From positions 1 to 32,670 of the IMG/VR virus record IMGVR_UViG_3300032282_003876: a DNA stretch of 32,670 nucleotides; one strand, 5' to 3'. The translations under genes and the position numbers were made by a program. This DNA is from a virus. Below are positions 6,034-32,670 of the stretch, piece by piece (position 1 is the stretch's first letter; every line of letters starts with the position of its first letter). The notes under the pieces were generated by a model. The model was not told the DNA's origin. It saw nothing but the letters and a program-made list of their open reading frames with translations, and did no database searches.

Positions 6034-7347
6034 ATGGCACAGTTTCGTAAGGATACACATCAATTTTTACCAGCAGAAAAAACTTTATTTGAAGTAGTTA
6101 TGCTTGCTGATCAGTATGGTAGTCTAGTTGGTCCAGCAAATCCTTCTGGAGTTGCTGTCGATGCATTTGGTCGAGCAAGAATGTCGACACCATTAACACT
6201 ATTTGATTCTTCTCATCGTTATAAAGATAATGGTTTATGGTCTACATCTAATACAGCTGGTACTACATATGCTCATAATGCAAATGCTGGTATTATTGAA
6301 TTAACCTTACCTACAACTGCAAATGCTGAAATTGTTCGTGAGACATCAAAAGTTTTTTCTTATCAGCCAGGTAAATCTTTACAATCGTTGAATACATTCG
6401 TATTTAATACATCTAAAACAAATCTACGTCAACGTGTTGGATACTTTGGTGCTCAGAATGGTATTTACTTAGAACTTGACGGAACAACTCTCAATTTTGT
6501 TGAACGTTCATATGTAAGTGGAGCTGTTTCTGAAACACGTGTATCACAAGCAGATTGGAATATAGATACTCTATTAGGTGATGTTGCTTCAAGTCCCTCA
6601 CAAGTTACTTTAGATATTACAAAAGCTCAAATTATGTTTATTGATGTTGAATGGCTAGGGCTTGGTACTGTTAGATGTGGATTTGTTATTGATGGGAAGC
6701 TGATTCATTGTCATTCGTTCCATCATGCAAATAAAATTCAATCAACATATATGACAACAGCATCGCTTCCATTGCGCTATGAAATTAAAAATACAGGTGC
6801 AACTGCAAGTTCAAGCACTATGAAACAAGTGTGCTCTACTGTTATTAGTGAGGGTGGATATGAGCTTAGAGGTGAACAGAGATCTATCGGCACTCCAGTA
6901 CAAACACCAAAAAATTTAACAACGGCTGGTACTTACTACCCCATTGTTTCTATTCAGTTAAAATCAGCTTATCTTGATGCTATTGCTATCTTAACAGCAC
7001 TTTCAATATTAGGCATTAACTCTAACTCTTGCAGTGTTGCCTGGAGAGTTATAAGAGGTGCAACATTAACATCACCTTCTTGGACAGCCGGAAGTGCTGA
7101 TAGTGCTGTTGAATATGATACATCAGCTACAGGTTTGAGTGGAGGTAATGTATTGACACAAGGATATATTGGTATTACAAACCAAGCATCACAGACAATT
7201 GATGTGCTAAAAGAAGCATTATTCAAGTTTCAGCTACAAAGAAACAGTCTAACAAGTACACAAGAACCATTGACAATTGCTATGTCAGCTTCTGTTAATA
7301 CTGTTTCTTGTCTTGCTTCAATGGACTGGGAAGAGATTACTAGATAA
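6034..7347 (+). CDS. virion structural protein
   Basis: This 437-residue protein has the profile of a phage structural protein: rich in Ser, Thr, Ala and Asn, with alternating beta strands and few charged residues. The N-terminal part (VAVDAFGRARMSTPLTLFDSSHRY) matches a pattern I associate with structural proteins of marine T4-like phages. The middle (150-290) looks like a jelly-roll or lectin-like sandwich. There is no signal or membrane segment. It follows the head-targeted genes and precedes another late promoter. It could be a head-decoration, neck or tail-associated protein, and the sequence does not decide which. Confidence 0.8.
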   Translation: MAQFRKDTHQFLPAEKTLFEVVMLADQYGSLVGPANPSGVAVDAFGRARMSTPLTLFDSSHRYKDNGLWSTSNTAGTTYAHNANAGIIELTLPTTANAEIVRETSKVFSYQPGKSLQSLNTFVFNTSKTNLRQRVGYFGAQNGIYLELDGTTLNFVERSYVSGAVSETRVSQADWNIDTLLGDVASSPSQVTLDITKAQIMFIDVEWLGLGTVRCGFVIDGKLIHCHSFHHANKIQSTYMTTASLPLRYEIKNTGATASSSTMKQVCSTVISEGGYELRGEQRSIGTPVQTPKNLTTAGTYYPIVSIQLKSAYLDAIAILTALSILGINSNSCSVAWRVIRGATLTSPSWTAGSADSAVEYDTSATGLSGGNVLTQGYIGITNQASQTIDVLKEALFKFQLQRNSLTSTQEPLTIAMSASVNTVSCLASMDWEEITR

Positions 7348-8180: not shown

Positions 8181-8618
8181 ATGGAACAACTATTACAACA
8201 AATGAAGGTAGTGCTTGCAAGCACTTTTGCCTTTTATCTCAAGGCTCATAACTTTCATTGGAATGTTGAAGGACCTGATTTTGCACAATATCATGAATTT
8301 CTTGGCAATTTATATGAAGAAGCATTTGGTGCTGTAGATCCTATTGCTGAGCATATTAGAGCACTTAATTCATATGCTCCAGGTAGTTTAACCAGATTTG
8401 CACAACTTTCAGTTATTGATGATCAGATTAATATTCCAAATGCTTTAAAAATGATTAAAGAATTGGAAATGGATAATAATAAATTGAAAGATGAACTTAC
8501 TAAAGCTTATAAACTAGCAGAAACAGCGAATGAAGCTGGTTTATCTAACTTTTTACAAGATCGTATTGATATCCATGCCAAGCACGGTTGGATGTTAAGA
8601 TCTATTGGTAAAGTTTAA
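8181..8618 (+). CDS. dps: Dps-family ferritin (DNA-protecting ferroxidase)
   Basis: Dps proteins form 12-subunit shells that oxidise and store iron, and many bind DNA. This 145-residue protein has the Dps helix with AHNFHWNVEG and all ferroxidase ligands at exact family spacing: His26, His38, Asp53 and Glu57 correspond to E. coli Dps His51, His63, Asp78 and Glu82. Its C-terminal helix ends HAKHGWMLRSIGKV. It lacks a long lysine-rich DNA-binding tail. It lies among late virion-type genes, so it may protect phage DNA or be carried in the particle, although expression in the host to limit oxidative damage is equally possible. Confidence 0.9.
   Translation: MEQLLQQMKVVLASTFAFYLKAHNFHWNVEGPDFAQYHEFLGNLYEEAFGAVDPIAEHIRALNSYAPGSLTRFAQLSVIDDQINIPNALKMIKELEMDNNKLKDELTKAYKLAETANEAGLSNFLQDRIDIHAKHGWMLRSIGKV
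8210..8225. repeat. 16-bp perfect palindrome inside dps
   Basis: AGTGCTTG and CAAGCACT meet without a spacer, ten codons into dps, and are followed by TTTT. It could form a small hairpin with weak attenuation or be an operator-like site. It also codes for protein (VVLAST), so it may be coincidental. Confidence 0.5.
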
Positions 8619-21515: not shown

Positions 21516-21932
21516 ATGAATGAAGTAATTGGGTTTACCTGTGGTGCATTTGACTTATTGCACCCAGGACACATACACTTTCTAAATGAGTGTAGTAAAC
21601 ATTGTGAGGAATTAATTGTAGGTTTACATTCTAATCCACAACTAGATCGAGATTGGAAGAATAAACCTATTCAAAGTATGTATGAACGATATGTTCAACT
21701 TGATGGGCTAAGATTTATAGATCAAATTATTCCATACGATACAGAATATGATCTATTAAATATGATGGGTACATTAACTATCAATAAACGATTTGTCGGA
21801 ACCGAGTATAAAGATCAAGAACTTACGGGTCAACATATTTGTGATCTATTAAATATTGAAATCATATATATTCCAAGATATCATCAATATAGTTCAACAG
21901 AACTAAGAAATAGACTTAAAGGTATTACATAA
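21516..21932 (+). CDS. cytidylyltransferase-like nucleotidyltransferase
   Basis: This 138-residue protein of the TagD/HldE-C family transfers a nucleotide to a sugar phosphate. GFTCGAFDLLHPGHIHFL holds the HxGH motif (His16, His19) and YSSTELRNRL is the closing SSTxLR motif. Its size matches a single-domain enzyme. In the operon of heptose genes, the most likely substrate is a heptose 1-phosphate (as HldE C-domain or HddC make ADP- or GDP-heptose), but glycerol-3-phosphate or another polyol is possible. Its stop overlaps the methyltransferase start. Confidence 0.85.
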   Translation: MNEVIGFTCGAFDLLHPGHIHFLNECSKHCEELIVGLHSNPQLDRDWKNKPIQSMYERYVQLDGLRFIDQIIPYDTEYDLLNMMGTLTINKRFVGTEYKDQELTGQHICDLLNIEIIYIPRYHQYSSTELRNRLKGIT

Positions 21933-22627
21933 TGGGCATTATTAGATTTAGTGACGAAGAAGTATTCAGCACTGATAGTCAAGAATATGATATTCTGCAA
22001 CGTGCAGTACTACAATGCAAAGGTGTTCCAGGTGCTGTAGTTGAAATTGGGACTCGCCGTGGTGGTTCAGCCAAAATTATTATTGATAGCTTAGCTATGA
22101 ATCAAGATACAGATCGTTCAATGTTCTGTATTGATCCATACGGTAATATTGAAATTGAATGCACCAATATGAATATCACTCATCATGTGCCAGGCGTAGC
22201 TACTGAGGGTGATCCAATGTCAAAAGAGATTACCAAACCGCTTAGGTTTGATTATGATAATAGCATGCGAAATCGAATCATTCCTTCACTTTATTATTAT
22301 GCTTATAATAAAGGACTAAATTTTGCATTCTTCTGCATGGAAGATTCAGAGTTCTTTAATCGGTTTGCAGATGGAGTTCCGGTATATAATAATTTCAAGA
22401 AGTATGAAAATACTTATGCGTTTGTATTCTTTGATGGACCACATCATAATGAAGCAGTGGATCTTGAAACAAAATTCTTTCTAGATCGTTCAACTATTGG
22501 TACCGTATTTGTTGCAGATGATATCTGGATGTATGATCATGAGCGATTTGAAACCATGATTTATGCGCAAGGTTTTAAAGTCCTTGAAAAAGGGCAAGTA
22601 AAAGCTTCATATGTAAAGGTTTCATAA
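21932..22627 (+). CDS. class I SAM-dependent methyltransferase
   Basis: This 231-residue protein has the glycine-rich motif I VVEIGTRRGGSAKIIIDS (about 36-53), an acidic motif (FCIDPYG), and VFFDGPHHNEAVDLE, which resembles the TylF/macrocin-O-methyltransferase group. It lies between the nucleotidyltransferase and the GmhA-like isomerase with TAATG couplings on both sides, so it is probably part of the same pathway. O-methylation of the phage-made sugar is the simplest reading; O-methylation of lipid or DNA-linked sugar is possible. Confidence 0.8.
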   Translation: MGIIRFSDEEVFSTDSQEYDILQRAVLQCKGVPGAVVEIGTRRGGSAKIIIDSLAMNQDTDRSMFCIDPYGNIEIECTNMNITHHVPGVATEGDPMSKEITKPLRFDYDNSMRNRIIPSLYYYAYNKGLNFAFFCMEDSEFFNRFADGVPVYNNFKKYENTYAFVFFDGPHHNEAVDLETKFFLDRSTIGTVFVADDIWMYDHERFETMIYAQGFKVLEKGQVKASYVKVS

Positions 22628-23211
22628 TGTCATTTATTGAACATTATCTTAGTGAAGTAACTTTTACAACCAATAGTCTTTCAAGTGAAGATATTGAAAC
22701 AATTGTAAATTATCTAAAACAAGTAAGAGATAATGATGGTCGAGTCTTTGTTTTAGGTGTTGGTGGTTCGGCTGCAAATGCCTCACATATGGTAAATGAT
22801 CTACGAAAACTATGTGATATTGAAGCATATAGTCCAGTTGATAATGTATCAGAACTTACGGCTCGAGTAAATGATGAAGGATGGGAATATTTCTTTGAGC
22901 GTTGGCTCAAAACATCAAAGTTAACTGAATTTGATTGTATCTTTGTATTATCAGTAGGTGGTGGTAGTCAAGAACGAAATATTTCAGTTAATCTGATTAG
23001 AGCAATTGATCTAGCACATGATGTTGGTGCAGCAGTTGTAAGTATTGTTGGTAAACCTGATGGTTATGCAGCATTACATAGTGATGCATGTTGTGTCATT
23101 CCTGTATCAGATCAGACATTATTAACGCCAATTAGCGAAGCATTTCAAGCAATTGTTTGGCATGGTATTGTTTCTCATCCTGAACTTCAGCTAGCAAAGA
23201 CAACGTGGTAA
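22627..23211 (+). CDS. gmhA: phosphoheptose isomerase-like SIS protein
   Basis: GmhA converts sedoheptulose 7-phosphate to D-glycero-D-manno-heptose 7-phosphate. This 194-residue protein carries the SIS domain: VLGVGGSAANASHMVNDLRK (from residue 42), VLSVGGGSQERN near 114-125, the Thr/Glu element TPISEAFQAIVWH (about 172-184), and DNVSELTARVND in the middle, all typical of GmhA. The start overlaps the previous stop by one base and its end overlaps the GmhB gene by seven bases. Context and sequence agree on the heptose pathway. Confidence 0.85.
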   Translation: MSFIEHYLSEVTFTTNSLSSEDIETIVNYLKQVRDNDGRVFVLGVGGSAANASHMVNDLRKLCDIEAYSPVDNVSELTARVNDEGWEYFFERWLKTSKLTEFDCIFVLSVGGGSQERNISVNLIRAIDLAHDVGAAVVSIVGKPDGYAALHSDACCVIPVSDQTLLTPISEAFQAIVWHGIVSHPELQLAKTTW

Positions 23212-23732
23212 AGACAGTATTTCTAGATAGGGATGGAGTTATTAATCATCTTGTCAATCATAATGGCAAGATGACTGCTCCCTGGAAAGTTGAAGAATTT
23301 ATATTCATGTCTGGTGCTGTTCAATGTATTCGTAGATTCAAGAATTTTGGCAAAAGAGTAATAGTAATTACCAATCAACCAGACGTTCTTGATGGTAAAA
23401 TGACTCGTGAAACATTTGACATATTCAAAGATATGTTATATTATCTAAAGGTTGATGATGTATTCTGTGCAGAGCAGCGTGGAACAGAATTCTATAAACC
23501 AAATAATGGTATGCTCGAGCACTATATACAAAAATACGAGTTAAATAGAAATCATTGTGTATTGATTGGTGACACCTGGAAAGATATTGTAGCTGGGTAT
23601 AAAAGTAATATCACAACAATATATAGTTCATATGAGACATATACATCTCCTAAGGAATGGTCTCATATAAAACCGGCTCATACTGTAAAAAATATAACAG
23701 AAGCAACTAAATTAATTGAGGATATATTATGA
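23205..23732 (+). CDS. gmhB: HAD phosphatase, heptose-bisphosphate phosphatase-like
   Basis: GmhB removes the 7-phosphate from heptose 1,7-bisphosphate. The 175-residue protein starts at a GTG that overlaps the previous stop and begins MVKTVFLDRDGVIN, with the HAD nucleophile Asp8 and acid Asp10. ITNQPDVLDG supplies the motif II Thr, FYKPNNGML the motif III Lys, and LIGDTWKDI the motif IV acidic pair. Bacterial GmhB binds zinc through cysteines; here only scattered cysteines are visible and no clear CxH cluster, so zinc may be absent. Confidence 0.83.
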   Translation: MVKTVFLDRDGVINHLVNHNGKMTAPWKVEEFIFMSGAVQCIRRFKNFGKRVIVITNQPDVLDGKMTRETFDIFKDMLYYLKVDDVFCAEQRGTEFYKPNNGMLEHYIQKYELNRNHCVLIGDTWKDIVAGYKSNITTIYSSYETYTSPKEWSHIKPAHTVKNITEATKLIEDIL

Positions 23733-24472
23733 TTGATATCTATGCAGACGGCGCAGCAATGGATGGTATCGTTGAAGCATCAAAAAATAATAAGATCAAA
23801 GGATTTACAACAAATCCATCACTCATGAAAGCAGCAGGCATTAAAGATTATATGGGGTTTTGTGATAATGTTATTGCGTATTTAAAAGAATATCGACCAG
23901 ACACCAATATTAGTCTGGAAGTATTCTCGGATGATGAAACTGAAATGCTTGAACAAGCACTGAAGTTAAATCAAGTCGGACTCAATCATGATTATCCAGT
24001 CTATGTAAAGATTCCTGTTACATATACAAATGGTGAATTTACTATTAATGTTATTCAAAAGTTGCTTGAAAAGAATGTAAGAGTAAATGTTACAGCCGTC
24101 TTTACTCCATATCAAACAATGCATGTACTTGATGCTATTGGAACAAGTAAAGTACCAAGTATTATTTCAATTTTTGCTGGTAGAATTGCCGATGCTGGTA
24201 AAAATGCAGGATTGATTGTTTCAGAATGTGTAAAACTAAATAAGTTTCTTACGTCTGGTCTATCACGAAATCCTAATATTAAGTTTCTTTGGGCATCTAC
24301 ACGACAAGTTTATAACTATGTTGAAGCACAACTAGCAGGTTGTCATGTTATTACAATGACACCAGATGTTATTAAAAAATTATCTAATCTTGATAAAAAT
24401 TTGACCGAGTATTCACTTGAGACAGTCAAGATGTTTAGAGATGATGCCATTAAGTCAGGATATACAATCTAA
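23729..24472 (+). CDS. tal: transaldolase (TalC-type)
   Basis: This 247-residue enzyme moves a dihydroxyacetone unit, and can form sedoheptulose 7-phosphate. It has GFTTNPSLM (25-33), the Schiff-base lysine in YVKIP (Lys94), VTAVFTPYQTM, and SIFAGRIADAG, all of the transaldolase/fructose-6-phosphate aldolase family. Related cyanophage genes are usually linked to host carbon metabolism. Here the gene is set between GmhB and a glycosyltransferase with ATGA/TAATG overlaps, which suggests it supplies the S7P substrate for the heptose enzymes. Confidence 0.9.
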   Translation: MIDIYADGAAMDGIVEASKNNKIKGFTTNPSLMKAAGIKDYMGFCDNVIAYLKEYRPDTNISLEVFSDDETEMLEQALKLNQVGLNHDYPVYVKIPVTYTNGEFTINVIQKLLEKNVRVNVTAVFTPYQTMHVLDAIGTSKVPSIISIFAGRIADAGKNAGLIVSECVKLNKFLTSGLSRNPNIKFLWASTRQVYNYVEAQLAGCHVITMTPDVIKKLSNLDKNLTEYSLETVKMFRDDAIKSGYTI

Positions 24473-25464
24473 TGAGTATGTTTGAAGAAAATGAAGTTTC
24501 AAAGAATGCCTTTGGTGGTACTGAACTAGCAAAGAGAAAACTAGCAGCCATTCTTGATCCAAGTCTACTAAATGACTTTCAGGTAGTTTGTTCCAGACCA
24601 AGAGACTTGGATGAATCAAAGATTAGAATTTTCTTTGCCAACGACCTGGCTACCGATCCAGAGTCTGCCAAGTTTCGTGAAGAATCATTCCGAGATAAAT
24701 TTCATAAGTTTGTCTTTATTTCTAATTGGCAAATGAGCCAATATCAACTAGTACATGGTATTCCATATGATACCAAGAGTATTGTACTAGAATCTGGTAT
24801 TGATATTGCACCCGAGACTGTCAAAAGTAAGGATAAAATTCGTCTGGTCTATACATCAACACCACAACGTGGTCTTGATATTCTTGTTCCAGTCTTTAAA
24901 CATCTAGCAGAAAAATATCCCGATATTCATCTTGATGTATTTTCTAGTTTCAAGATTTATGGTTGGGATGATGCCGATAAGCAATTTGAACCATTATATG
25001 ATGAAATCCGTAATCATCCACAAATGACTTATCACGGCTTTGTGCCTAATGATACACTTCGTTCAACATTAAATGATTGTCATATCTTTGCTTATCCATC
25101 TACATGGGTTGAGACTAGTTGCCGAGCAATGCTAGAAGCAATGACTGCTGGTCTAGTTTGTGTGCATCCAAATCTTGGTGCATTGCCAGATACATCTGGT
25201 TCACTCAATGTAATGTATCAAGGCTCAATGGATAAAAATGAACATGCTAATATCTTTAATGCTCATTTAGAAGCAGCAATTAATTTTGTTAAGAATGATG
25301 CACATGTAAGTATGGTTCAATTTAATAAGACTTATATTGATAGTCGGTTTGGTATTGATAGAATCAAGCGACAATGGGAAACGATGCTCAAGGATCTACT
25401 TAATAGATACCCTACAGAAGAGAGTCGTAGTTTTCCCAAACAACAATTTGTATATCGTACATGA
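24472..25464 (+). CDS. GT4-like glycosyltransferase
   Basis: This 330-residue GT-B-type enzyme has TPQRGLDILVPVFKHLAEKY and FVPNDTLRSTLNDC in its C-terminal nucleotide-sugar domain, and ETSCRAMLEAMTAGLVCVHP, which gives the Glu-x7-Glu motif of GT4 enzymes. The N-terminal Gly-rich acceptor loop (NAFGGTELAKRKL) is present. No membrane segment is seen. It probably transfers the activated sugar made by the neighbouring enzymes; the acceptor (LPS, a protein or DNA) is unknown. The ends overlap both neighbours. Confidence 0.85.
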   Translation: MSMFEENEVSKNAFGGTELAKRKLAAILDPSLLNDFQVVCSRPRDLDESKIRIFFANDLATDPESAKFREESFRDKFHKFVFISNWQMSQYQLVHGIPYDTKSIVLESGIDIAPETVKSKDKIRLVYTSTPQRGLDILVPVFKHLAEKYPDIHLDVFSSFKIYGWDDADKQFEPLYDEIRNHPQMTYHGFVPNDTLRSTLNDCHIFAYPSTWVETSCRAMLEAMTAGLVCVHPNLGALPDTSGSLNVMYQGSMDKNEHANIFNAHLEAAINFVKNDAHVSMVQFNKTYIDSRFGIDRIKRQWETMLKDLLNRYPTEESRSFPKQQFVYRT

Positions 25465-26444
25465 TTATTTCTAAAACCCCATTAAGAATTAGTTTCTTTT
25501 CTGGTGGCAGTGACTTACCGGCTTTCTATAGGAGAGCCGAGGGTGCTGCCCTTTCAGTTACTATTGACAAATACATATATGTTATGGCTCATAGTAAATC
25601 ACGAGGTAACTATGTAACTGCATTTGATGGTATTAATGATTATGATACATTGGACTCAATGACCCATGATATTACTCGTGAAACATTAAAAGAATATAGA
25701 ATCAAGAATAAAGTCCATGTAGCATCTATTTCAGATATCCCAGGTAAAGGCTCTGGTCTTGGTAGTTCTTCATCGTTTACAGTTGGTTTAATTAATGCTT
25801 TAAAAGAATGTTATGAACCAGTTTCATTGGCAGAACAAGCTTGTAATATTGAAATGAATCGTTGTGAATATCCAGTTGGTAAACAAGATCAATATGCTGC
25901 AGCAGTTGGTGGTCTAAATTTATTCAAGTTTTCAAGTGATCGTGTTGCATCATCACTCTTAAATATCTCTAAAGAGACTATCGCTAAACTACATGATAAT
26001 TTACTATTAGTTTATACAGGTATTTCACGATCTGCCAATAAAATTCTATCAGAACAATCTAAGTCTATGACTGATGATGATAAATTCAATCTTGTCATGA
26101 ATGGTCGTAATAAGGCTATCTTTGCCGCAGACTTACTAGAGCGTGGTGATCTAGATACATTTGGTGATTTGTTACATCAAGCATGGTTAGATAAAAAGAA
26201 TGTGGCATCTGGCATTACTAGTGAAGCAATTGATCACATTTATGATGTAGCTATGTTAAATGGTGCTCTTGGTGGTAAGATTTTAGGTGCTGGTGGTGGC
26301 GGTTTTATGATCTTCTACTGTGAATCTAATAAGAAAGAAGAATTATCTTCTATTCTAGGTAAAAAAACTAGAGCTGTTACATATGATTTTAACTTTACAA
26401 GAGAAGGATCAAAAGTTGTATATGCAGATGAGATCCTATCATAA
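25461..26444 (+). CDS. hddA: GHMP kinase, heptose 7-phosphate kinase-like (HddA)
   Basis: This 327-residue GHMP kinase begins MIISKTPLRISFFSGGSDLP, the typical start of HddA-type sugar kinases. IPGKGSGLGSSSSFTVGLIN (94-113) is the ATP loop, YPVGKQDQYAAAVGG gives the Asp and substrate loop, and KILGAGGGGFMIFY is motif 3. HddA adds the 1-phosphate to D-glycero-D-manno-heptose 7-phosphate. With GmhA, GmhB, transaldolase and a nucleotidyltransferase encoded just upstream, the family call is well supported. The stop precedes a strong promoter. Confidence 0.88.
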   Translation: MIISKTPLRISFFSGGSDLPAFYRRAEGAALSVTIDKYIYVMAHSKSRGNYVTAFDGINDYDTLDSMTHDITRETLKEYRIKNKVHVASISDIPGKGSGLGSSSSFTVGLINALKECYEPVSLAEQACNIEMNRCEYPVGKQDQYAAAVGGLNLFKFSSDRVASSLLNISKETIAKLHDNLLLVYTGISRSANKILSEQSKSMTDDDKFNLVMNGRNKAIFAADLLERGDLDTFGDLLHQAWLDKKNVASGITSEAIDHIYDVAMLNGALGGKILGAGGGGFMIFYCESNKKEELSSILGKKTRAVTYDFNFTREGSKVVYADEILS

Positions 26445-31836: not shown

Positions 31837-31870
31837 AAAAAGCCCTGGAATAAACCAGGGCTTTATTTTT
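31837..31870. terminator. bidirectional rho-independent terminator
   Basis: AAAGCCCTGG and CCAGGGCTTT pair around an AATAAA loop, with T-runs on both sides (A-rich left side, ATTTTT right). It lies between the convergent agt and the - strand gene, so it can stop transcripts from both directions. Confidence 0.9.
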
Positions 31871-32177
31871 ATCCATAGGATCCATATTCTGTTTTAATTA
31901 CTTTGTAATATCCACATATTGAACATGTATCAATATATTCAGTCATGGATTTATCCAGATAACCACCAGGATAGTATTCTTCTTTTCTGACTAAATGAAC
32001 ACAGGAGCCATTACAGACTTCCTTTAGCTTTGCTTTATCCATTGCTAGTAGTGCTTTAGCTCGATCAATAAGTCGTTCTGCTTCCTCAAGCTTACTAATC
32101 TTATCCTTGATATCTGTAATCAACTTATCTTTTTCATTAGTCACTGGAGCAATACATCCTCTATCTCTACAATCCAT
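31869..32177 (-). CDS. coiled-coil protein with C-terminal cysteine cluster
   Basis: This - strand gene encodes 102 residues: a Cys-containing start (MDCRDRGCIAPVTNEKDKLI), a coiled coil (about 15-52) and a C-terminal cluster CNGSCVHLV with CSICGYYKV. C-H-C-C spacing suggests a small zinc site. It has a codon-use style like its neighbours, and I see no strong ribosome site. It converges with agt at the bidirectional terminator. The function is unknown. Confidence 0.65.
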   Translation of the reverse strand: MDCRDRGCIAPVTNEKDKLITDIKDKISKLEEAERLIDRAKALLAMDKAKLKEVCNGSCVHLVRKEEYYPGGYLDKSMTEYIDTCSICGYYKVIKTEYGSYG

Positions 32178-32287: not shown

Positions 32288-32453
32288 GACTTTTATAAAA
32301 AACTTCAAGTTTTATAAGCGTCACATATTCATTTATATTTTGATATGTATGAGTTGTAATTATATTCTGATATTTTGCATTTACAAGCTTATCAACTTGT
32401 CTGGAACACTCTATACTGGGTTTAAATTTTAGAGTTTTAATTATTGATTTCAT
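32274..32453 (-). CDS. 59-residue hypothetical protein on - strand
   Basis: This ORF (MKSIIKTLKFKPSIECSRQV and so on, ending FYKSHEEN) lies between the repeat-protein gene and the 31-residue ORF, with its start 17 bases inside the end of the repeat gene. It fills what would otherwise be a gap. It has a mixed alpha/beta look and one cysteine. No family or strong ribosome site is seen. Confidence 0.45.
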   Translation of the reverse strand: MKSIIKTLKFKPSIECSRQVDKLVNAKYQNIITTHTYQNINEYVTLIKLEVFYKSHEEN

Positions 32454-32634
32454 TTGTGCTCATATCTACTATTGCTTCTGAGCTTTTATTGACTTGTTGC
32501 CAGACTTGATCCAAGACTTGATCCAAGACTTGAATCCTGACTTGATCCCAGACTTGATTCTCGACTTGAATCCTGACTTGATCCCAGACTTGACTATAGA
32601 CTTGATACTTGACTTGAGTCCTGGCTTGCTTCAT
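32437..32634 (-). CDS. tetrapeptide (x-Q-V-x) repeat protein
   Basis: This 65-residue protein begins MKQARTQVKYQVYSQVWDQV and continues with Gln-Val every four residues for about 12 units, then a short acidic tail (DMSTNEINN). AAGGA lies eight bases before the ATG, a good ribosome site. The regular hydrophobic-polar pattern suggests an amphipathic helix or a repeat solenoid. Each unit is 12 bp with invariant CAA-GTC codons. An upstream similar ORF overlaps the start by four bases, so it is one of at least two repeat genes. No family is recognised. Confidence 0.7.
   Translation of the reverse strand: MKQARTQVKYQVYSQVWDQVRIQVENQVWDQVRIQVLDQVLDQVWQQVNKSSEAIVDMSTNEINN
32491..32628. repeat. 12-bp tandem repeat, 12 units (11 exact GACTTG cores)
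   Basis: On the + strand GACTTG recurs at 32491, 32503, 32515 and every 12 bases to 32611, with a GGCTTG variant at 32623. The six spacer bases vary. On the - strand this is CAAGTC in frame, giving Gln-Val. Further copies at 32652 and 32664 are in a different phase. Confidence 0.92.
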
Positions 32635-32670
32635 GCTTCCAATCCTTCATAGACTTGATCCCTGACTTGA
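32631..32670 (-). CDS. end of a second QV-repeat protein (start outside window)
   Basis: The - strand is open from the window's edge: QVRDQVYEGLEA then TGA, with the stop sharing bases with the next gene's ATG (GCATGA). It has the same CAAGTC codons as the neighbouring repeat gene, so the two look like tandem paralogues. Confidence 0.6.
   Translation of the reverse strand, partial: QVRDQVYEGLEA

Follow-up and report, generated by a model that had tools for sequence, protein, structure and literature searches.

QV genes at the end of the window

The window is the whole of the IMG/VR virus record IMGVR_UViG_3300032282_003876, 32,670 nucleotides in length. At its right-hand end we identified a stand-alone gene on the minus strand whose product consists mostly of tetrapeptide units, together with the 3' end of a second such gene and a 102-aa gene on the downstream side (Table 1). 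The ATG of the complete gene is at 32634-32632, its stop codon ends at 32437, and the 65-aa protein begins MKQARTQVKYQVYSQVWDQVRIQVENQVWDQVRIQVLDQVLDQVWQQVNKSS... Residues 3-48 are made up of 12 units with a period of four, one Gln-Ala (QA) and then 11 Gln-Val (QV), which bears out an earlier, sequence-only reading of this DNA in which Gln-Val recurred every four residues for about 12 units. Tandem Repeats Finder detects the array independently. The same reading had another gene of this kind ending just upstream; that gene is real, and it is joined to the first by an ATGA overlap.

Table 1. Positions of the QV genes, the repeat array and the neighbouring gene in the window
Feature	Position	Strand	Remarks
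Stand-alone QV gene	32437..32634	(-)	65 aa; short head (MK), then 12 units of four residues and a 17-residue tail outside the repeat
Repeat array with the 12-bp unit CAA-GTC-NNG-NNT (Gln-Val followed by a dipeptide that varies)	32491..32628	(-)	Tandem Repeats Finder, codons
Upstream QV gene, 3' end only, reading QVRDQVYEGLEA*, cut by the contig end	32631..32670	(-)	TGA at 32631-32633
ATGA stop-start overlap joining the two window QV genes	32631..32634	(-)	likewise in 33 of 78 neighbouring QV pairs elsewhere
102-aa gene downstream of the array	31869..32177	(-)	counterpart at 6963-7301 of the related phage L053, adjoining its QV array

The units had been described as always CAA-GTC. Glutamine is CAA in 12/12 units and valine is GTC in 11/11, and the description holds for units 2-12; the first unit, however, is CAA-GCC and encodes alanine. 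The codons had also been said to run against expectation, which is true of GTC but not of CAA. In the 24 other window genes GTC accounts for 43 of 438 Val codons (9.8%; P = 8e-12 for 11/11), whereas the use of CAA alone is unremarkable because this codon already makes up 75% of their Gln codons (P = 0.03 for 12/12). Position 9 of the unit is G in 10 of the 12 window units, compared with 11% G at the third bases of window genes, and the spacers of the array have a pN of 0.60 and a pS of 0.06.

The window gene has the make-up by which we define the stand-alone QV family, namely Q[V/I/A]xx units at a period of four forming most of a 50-120-aa protein, and the window also has the family's arrangement of tandem genes on the same strand with a short stop-start overlap. 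Its product gave no match above cut-off among the Pfam, PHROG, NCBIfam and PADLOC models, and the 102-aa gene gave no significant Pfam or PHROG match. The DUF6745 domain (PF20530), which figures prominently below, had no match in the window QV protein or anywhere in the 32.7-kb record.

An assembly artefact at the contig end, which the sequence-only reading had allowed for, is excluded by a contig, L001, from another IMG/VR metagenome record. This contig contains the window's 65-aa gene at 100% identity together with 52 aa of the upstream gene, and because 3 mismatches separate it from the window in 5,231 bp, a fault of one assembly does not account for the array. Each of the two contigs stops within the array, a common effect of repeats on contigs. 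Among the family contigs, 21 of 57 have an array no more than 60 bp from the contig end, where random placement would give 2.7. Arrays regularly break phage assemblies, and array size is underestimated.

Judged from its open reading frames, we read the window genome as T4-like in gene content, and the presence of a PhoH gene was confirmed. The closest isolated relatives found were Synechococcus phages, with about 70% identity across a few hundred bases of an RNase H gene and the P-starvation gene. The contig L053 and its twin L062 share about 4-6 kb with the window at 77% identity. In L053 the QV genes stand beyond the counterpart of the window's 102-aa gene, in the same layout as in the window, and the position of the array is syntenic between the two since that counterpart adjoins the QV array in L053.

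Elsewhere in the window, a run of plus-strand genes at 21516-26444 has Pfam matches to cytidylyltransferase-like, SIS-domain, HAD phosphatase, transaldolase, glycosyltransferase and GHMP kinase proteins. The run looks like a phage-borne nucleotide-heptose pathway of the GmhA, HddA, GmhB and HddC type. Further glycosyltransferase and metallophosphoesterase genes lie downstream of it. A gene for a ferritin-like (Dps-type) protein (PF00210, E = 7e-21) is at 8181-8618 on the plus strand.

Tandem arrays, frozen codons and variable spacers

A peptide-pattern search of IMG/VR returned seven loci, every one with several QV genes; the tandem QV genes of L002-L007 were retrieved by peptide patterns and not by DNA patterns. 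A DNA scan of IMG/VR for three CAAGTC units at a period of 12 found at least 119 stretches, and a first filter placed the family in 70 of 128 sequences among the matches listed. About 45 CAAGTC(N6)x3 stretches were set aside after reading as unrelated QV- or PSP-rich sequence with no QV array, and three loci that had passed the first filter (L045, L082 and L122) are unrelated low-complexity repeats. A stricter filter, applied with all later loci included, left 85; by length, 61 of these were classed as stand-alone and 24 as long proteins with an internal array. Metagenomes had been suggested as a place to look for xQVx arrays, and IMG/VR does contain many tandem arrays of QV genes.

We counted 135 QV genes across 45 non-redundant loci of the stand-alone type. 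The typical gene opens with a short head (MKSVxNQV, MNSVKxQV or MTLxNKV), continues through 10-18 units in most cases and closes with a tail, also short, such as DDIK, NDLTK or EDIENE, and the QV genes of one phage have common heads and tails with differing bodies. Overlaps occur in 51 of 78 neighbouring pairs on the same strand: 33 are of the ATGA type, 10 are of 17 bases, 6 of 8 bases, and one each of 14 and 11 bases. Going by their sequences, the QV genes are arranged like translated genes, with the array coding and not isolated. The antisense (DL) and shifted (KS) frames of the arrays are open in places; either of them as the true gene is disfavoured by the coupling, by the fusion with DUF6745 and by the pattern of change.

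The family seems almost absent from isolated phages. A blastn search with an array gave no match in 50,697 phage and 72,556 plasmid records, at a threshold that 62 of 64 local family loci would pass. The window protein is a poor tblastn query, by which only 4 of 63 family loci would pass, and its null result carries little weight. L011, a better query, led to three records, one of them significant, the fused prophage gene of prophiGD102-1. A codon-degenerate scan of bacterial genomes returned mostly other QV-rich low-complexity sequence, and one genome locus (L241) passed. We also considered whether the arrays are targets of a diversity-generating retroelement; this identity was rejected, as RVT_1 was found in 0 of 17 QV contigs, the window included and many of them fragmentary, with positive results in the control genomes.

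In the sequence-only reading, the exact nucleotide conservation pointed either to recent expansion or to a function at the DNA or RNA level, such as recombination or binding. The 24 loci from codon-degenerate searches, which exclude those already found as CAAGTC, have seven modal hexamers, and the modal hexamer has a median share of 98%. The hexamers of other lineages are CAGGTC, CAAGTG, CAAGTA, CAGGTA, CAAGTT and CAGGTG, with Gln-Val retained. Hexamer changes are commonest at the third base of the Val codon, in a count that presupposed Q and is informative at positions 4-6 only. Arrays of other dipeptides are frozen equally (AV as GCGGTG in 57/57 and QL as CAGCTC in 46/46), and so is the AA array of gp54 of mycobacteriophage Tweety (Tweety gp54), discussed below (GCCGCA in 49/49, with spacers of G/W/Q plus S/Y). 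Because the hexamer differs by lineage and the freezing extends to AV, QL and AA arrays, a single conserved DNA motif is unlikely, and a DNA-binding or recombination motif was rejected given the variation across lineages. Fold prediction set the window array (z = -3.7) apart from the three others of the four arrays, for which z was between -0.3 and +0.3. A structured RNA was rejected, since only one array in four folds better than shuffles and Rfam gave no match for the arrays. Function at the DNA or RNA level is thus not supported, and the frozen codons fit local homogenisation by slippage, unequal exchange or gene conversion.

The other half of that suggestion, recent expansion, is supported by near-identical phages that differ by whole 12-bp or 24-bp array units, the pairs being metagenome assemblies in which a chimeric join is possible for any single pair. 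Along 9,593 bp, the sole difference between L049 and L054 is the loss of 12 bp within an array. For L032, the array difference is 24 bp relative to L072, L075, L093 and L115, and two 12-bp losses relative to L043. In L052 and L103, which have only 16 mismatches where they align, neighbouring QV genes are recombined by changes of 146 bp and 100 bp. Comparison of copy number among strains reveals whole-unit differences between several near-identical pairs, whereas others have no array difference, for example L006/L007, L080/L118, and L001 and the window, which are identical over the array.

Within the unit, positions 7, 8, 10 and 11 are the most variable and outvary positions 9 and 12, so that the spacer amino acids change more than the synonymous sites. 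In a comparison of paralogous units within one locus, and not of orthologues, pN at the spacer codons was higher than pS for 61 of 67 non-redundant loci (medians of 0.43 and 0.14, respectively; Wilcoxon P = 3e-11). This count leaves out near-identical contigs (16 ids) and any locus of fewer than 8 units. The result was again 61 of 67 when each distinct spacer was counted once, and an earlier count with duplicates included gave 60 of 67. The loci without an excess of pN are L002, L006, L009, L023, L114 and L289, and they count against the split system proposed below. The simplest reading of these sequences is diversifying selection on the spacer dipeptide that counteracts homogenisation. Among 2,243 units the preferred spacer residues are W, R, G, S and E at the third place and D, N, S, A and G at the fourth.

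Association with DUF6745

DUF6745, a domain of proteins with such tetrapeptide repeats, is linked with the arrays in two ways. In fused proteins, the array is preceded by an N-terminal part and followed by the DUF6745 domain. PF20530 scored above its cut-off in four of six long array proteins (L077, L113, L126 and L017) and just below it in L055; there was no match in L042. The matches to fused forms have E-values of 1e-36 for L077, 4e-56 for L113, 3e-15 for L017 and 6e-29 for gene 38 of prophiGD102-1, whose fused array belongs to a prophage of M. abscessus. Other repeats also occur in the fused form, with QL in gene 38 of prophiGD102-1, AV or QL in L344, L346 and L347, and SL in cta39025. Among sampled bacterial genomes, DUF6745 is present in 8 of 296 from actinobacteria and in 17 of 194 from cyanobacteria, the groups being named after seed-genome titles. 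The three actinobacterial array loci all (3/3) sit among phage genes, including those for terminase, portal, integrase and a RecE-like exonuclease.

The second link is one of co-occurrence. A DUF6745 gene is present on 24 of 48 stand-alone QV contigs and on 0 of 38 control contigs (P = 2.6e-8), the controls being virus contigs of the same scan, unmatched for size and habitat, whose CAAGTC match is not a QV family array. The count was built from 10 of 15 and 16 of 35 contigs (26/50), from which L024 and L107 were dropped because, by coordinates, DUF6745 shares a reading frame with the array in these two (the fused form). With near-duplicates removed by hand, the non-redundant figure is about 20 of 40. 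The remaining 24 of the 48 contigs, the window's included and many of them fragments, are without a DUF6745 gene, which is evidence against a split system; the gene is absent from the 32.7-kb window fragment and from L001, and present in the related phage L053.

Among the 17 loci L371-L387, 13 were readable, no DUF6745 frame having been found by motif in L381, L382, L385 and L387. A QV gene starts 0-109 bp downstream of the DUF6745 gene on the same strand in 11 of these 13 loci (seven lineages), and an internal array was found in 0 of 13. At L371 and at L378, which is L053, about 1.2 kb to each side of the DUF6745 gene is free of QV genes, and this too speaks against a split system. In L052/L103 and in L026 the DUF6745 gene is inside the run of QV genes. 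Fusion in some phages and adjacency as separate genes in others point to proteins that work together. Among the PADLOC and NCBIfam models there is none that fits the QV protein or the split DUF6745 protein, and the fused proteins have weak matches that lie on the repeat.

Helix formation had been raised in the sequence-only reading. With 51 family members as input, AlphaFold models the QV protein as one helix over residues 2-64 (mean pLDDT 92.8, pTM 0.48). In the model of a fused protein the array is again a helix, but at a pLDDT of about 27-48, which counts against the split system. On a helix, a strict period of four drifts by about 40 degrees per unit and leaves no constant face, so that the predicted helical fold of the QV protein is tentative. 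A Foldseek search of the PDB with the DUF6745 model, itself weak (mean pLDDT 62), gave nothing at E<=0.001, and phmmer against PDB sequences found nothing for DUF6745 and nothing for the QV protein.

Comparison with known systems and possible roles

Tweety gp54 resembles the window array in design. According to one paper, its gene has a 12-bp unit in which the first six bases and positions 9 and 12 are invariant and positions 7, 8, 10 and 11 vary, and the number of units across Tweety gp54, Che8 gp57 and PMC gp51 is 48, 26 and 15 (PMC2884959). The window array likewise has 12-bp units, an invariant first hexamer (the first unit excepted) and frozen third positions in the spacers, and in other members of the QV family the number of units varies between close relatives, L001 and the window being identical. 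In two reviews, Tweety gp54 is reported as a counter-defence protein that is tuned through its number of repeats, with escape mutants that have more or fewer units (PMC9262239, PMC8549241), and one of the two calls its mechanism obscure. Unlike the QV genes, Tweety gp54 is a single gene whose N- and C-terminal parts are unique, its dipeptide is AA and not QV, and the published descriptions, in the portions available, are without tandem stand-alone genes. The window protein, for its part, has almost no non-repeat part to compare with the Tweety gp54 termini. Comparison of Tweety gp54 with the DUF6745 array proteins gave no PF20530 match and no homology beyond repeat composition, and its candidacy as a DUF6745 relative was rejected, a weak BLASTP match lying on the repeats. 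Since Tweety gp54 is not a DUF6745 protein, the comparison is one of likeness of design and not of membership.

Many DUF6745 proteins resemble the window array in carrying internal tetrapeptide arrays (QV, QL, AV or SL) with frozen codons, but the window protein is the array alone, with no DUF6745 domain. In bbp36 of Bordetella phage BMP-1, variable region 2 is reported to be a coding 24-bp repeat that varies in copy number by isolate and is non-essential (PMC2884959). Unlike the window array, bbp36 is a single gene with a different repeat. The glycine-repeat segment of FliH is helical. Its repeats, AxxxG(xxxG)mxxxA, have a period of four and vary in number (PMC2674601). FliH differs from the QV proteins in being a flagellar export protein with other residues in its repeats, and the resemblance is of design only. 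Tweety gp54 resembles FliH models below their cut-off. In the open-access literature searched, the name DUF6745 and six repeat strings were absent. Tetrapeptide arrays with frozen codons are already known; repeat-only tandem families beside DUF6745 were not found described in that literature.

The sequences show tandem coupled genes, recombination of units and of genes, homogenised codons, an excess of amino-acid change in the spacers, and a strong co-occurrence and adjacency with DUF6745. On this basis, and by analogy, we tentatively favour a split DUF6745-QV system in which recombination shuffles the repeat parts, acting as a recombination-tuned recognition or counter-defence module, and we would put its chance somewhat short of even. 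The window gene would be a member of a tandem family encoding stand-alone copies of the tetrapeptide-repeat module. These genes would represent the split form, consisting of a repeat-free conserved DUF6745 protein and QV proteins from neighbouring genes. The QV proteins, predicted to be long helices, would bind the DUF6745 protein in trans where the array sits in the fused form, and each variant would present a different surface. The target may, with less certainty, be a fast-changing factor of the host or of a rival phage. The assignment to recognition or counter-defence is by analogy with the repeat array of Tweety gp54, from which we infer that the QV array is probably a tunable binding module in conflict. 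We regard as less likely than not the further proposal of an immune-like phage repertoire, in which one conserved DUF6745 scaffold and a tandem set of interchangeable QV proteins supplied in trans would be retuned in specificity by 12-bp shuffling, against changing defences of the host or of rival phages, with fused one-gene versions in other phages and in prophages.

The DNA design of the Tweety type recurs in many uncultivated phages, where it is either internal to DUF6745 proteins or forms gene families of its own beside DUF6745. The association would supply DUF6745 with a partner and the arrays with a scaffold. QV genes are small, repetitive, assembly-breaking and without a family model, and are therefore easily overlooked in annotation.

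The observed features could also be caused by a structural role, in which the DUF6745 and QV proteins would form an oligomer or filament and the diversity of the spacers would set the pairing of paralogues. The predicted continuous helix would suit such a role, as would heads and tails that are alike within a phage while the bodies differ, and the variable-number period-4 repeats of FliH (PMC2674601) offer a parallel to which the sub-threshold resemblance of Tweety gp54 to FliH models can be added. However, pairing alone poorly explains the turnover between near-identical strains and the excess of pN over pS, and Gln-Val at each fourth residue gives no fixed hydrophobic helix face. We consider a structural role unlikely.

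It is improbable, in our estimation, that the QV proteins are decoys or dominant-negative inhibitors that poison the DUF6745-array proteins of a host, prophage or rival phage by replacing the internal array. Possible victims are suggested by the fused arrays in the M. abscessus prophage and among phage genes at the 3/3 actinobacterial loci, and the stand-alone proteins are little more than an array. Against this, the stand-alone genes mostly adjoin the phage's own DUF6745 gene, which suggests cooperation, and no host DUF6745 target is known for the phages with QV genes.

The arrays could, alternatively, be a selfish or neutral repeat, a stop-free 12-bp unit spreading by slippage with open frames as a by-product. 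Homogeneous codons are what recent slippage leaves, and the KS forward frame and the DL antisense frame are often open too. Such a repeat would not be expected to retain Gln-Val where the codons have diverged (L005 and L006), to have ATGA-coupled starts in many phages and spacers with pN>pS, or to lie in frame inside DUF6745 and be associated with that domain non-randomly; this origin seems to us quite improbable. An incidentally translated recombination site, protein-binding site or structured RNA is very improbable, for although CAAGTC is frozen in many phages even against their own codon bias and the window array folds well as RNA, there are at least seven hexamers across lineages, the AV, QL and AA arrays are equally frozen, the other three of the four arrays do not fold unusually, and Rfam gave no match.

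Some further observations concern individual DUF6745 genes. The domain is multi-copy in some cyanobacteria, with 4, 7 and 8 matches in three cyanobacterial genomes (G339, G429 and G472, respectively). The DUF6745 protein of one cyanobacterial genome (L352) has a decayed QL-type linker, LRSQFETKLRSELEKQLRSYLRGQLESELQNQLQTQL, which suggests that an array is able to erode. On plasmid 3 of Nocardia farcinica (L389, 570-1932), the QV array of a DUF6745 gene crosses a frame change and only the C-terminal part is annotated; this could be a pseudogene or the result of repeat-driven phase variation. In L372, a hairpin-forming repeat, GTCCGGAC-CTAAAAA-GTCCGGAC, lies at 2119-2141 across the DUF6745 stop codon and just before the first QV gene, where it could cause attenuation or govern how much of each product is made relative to the other.
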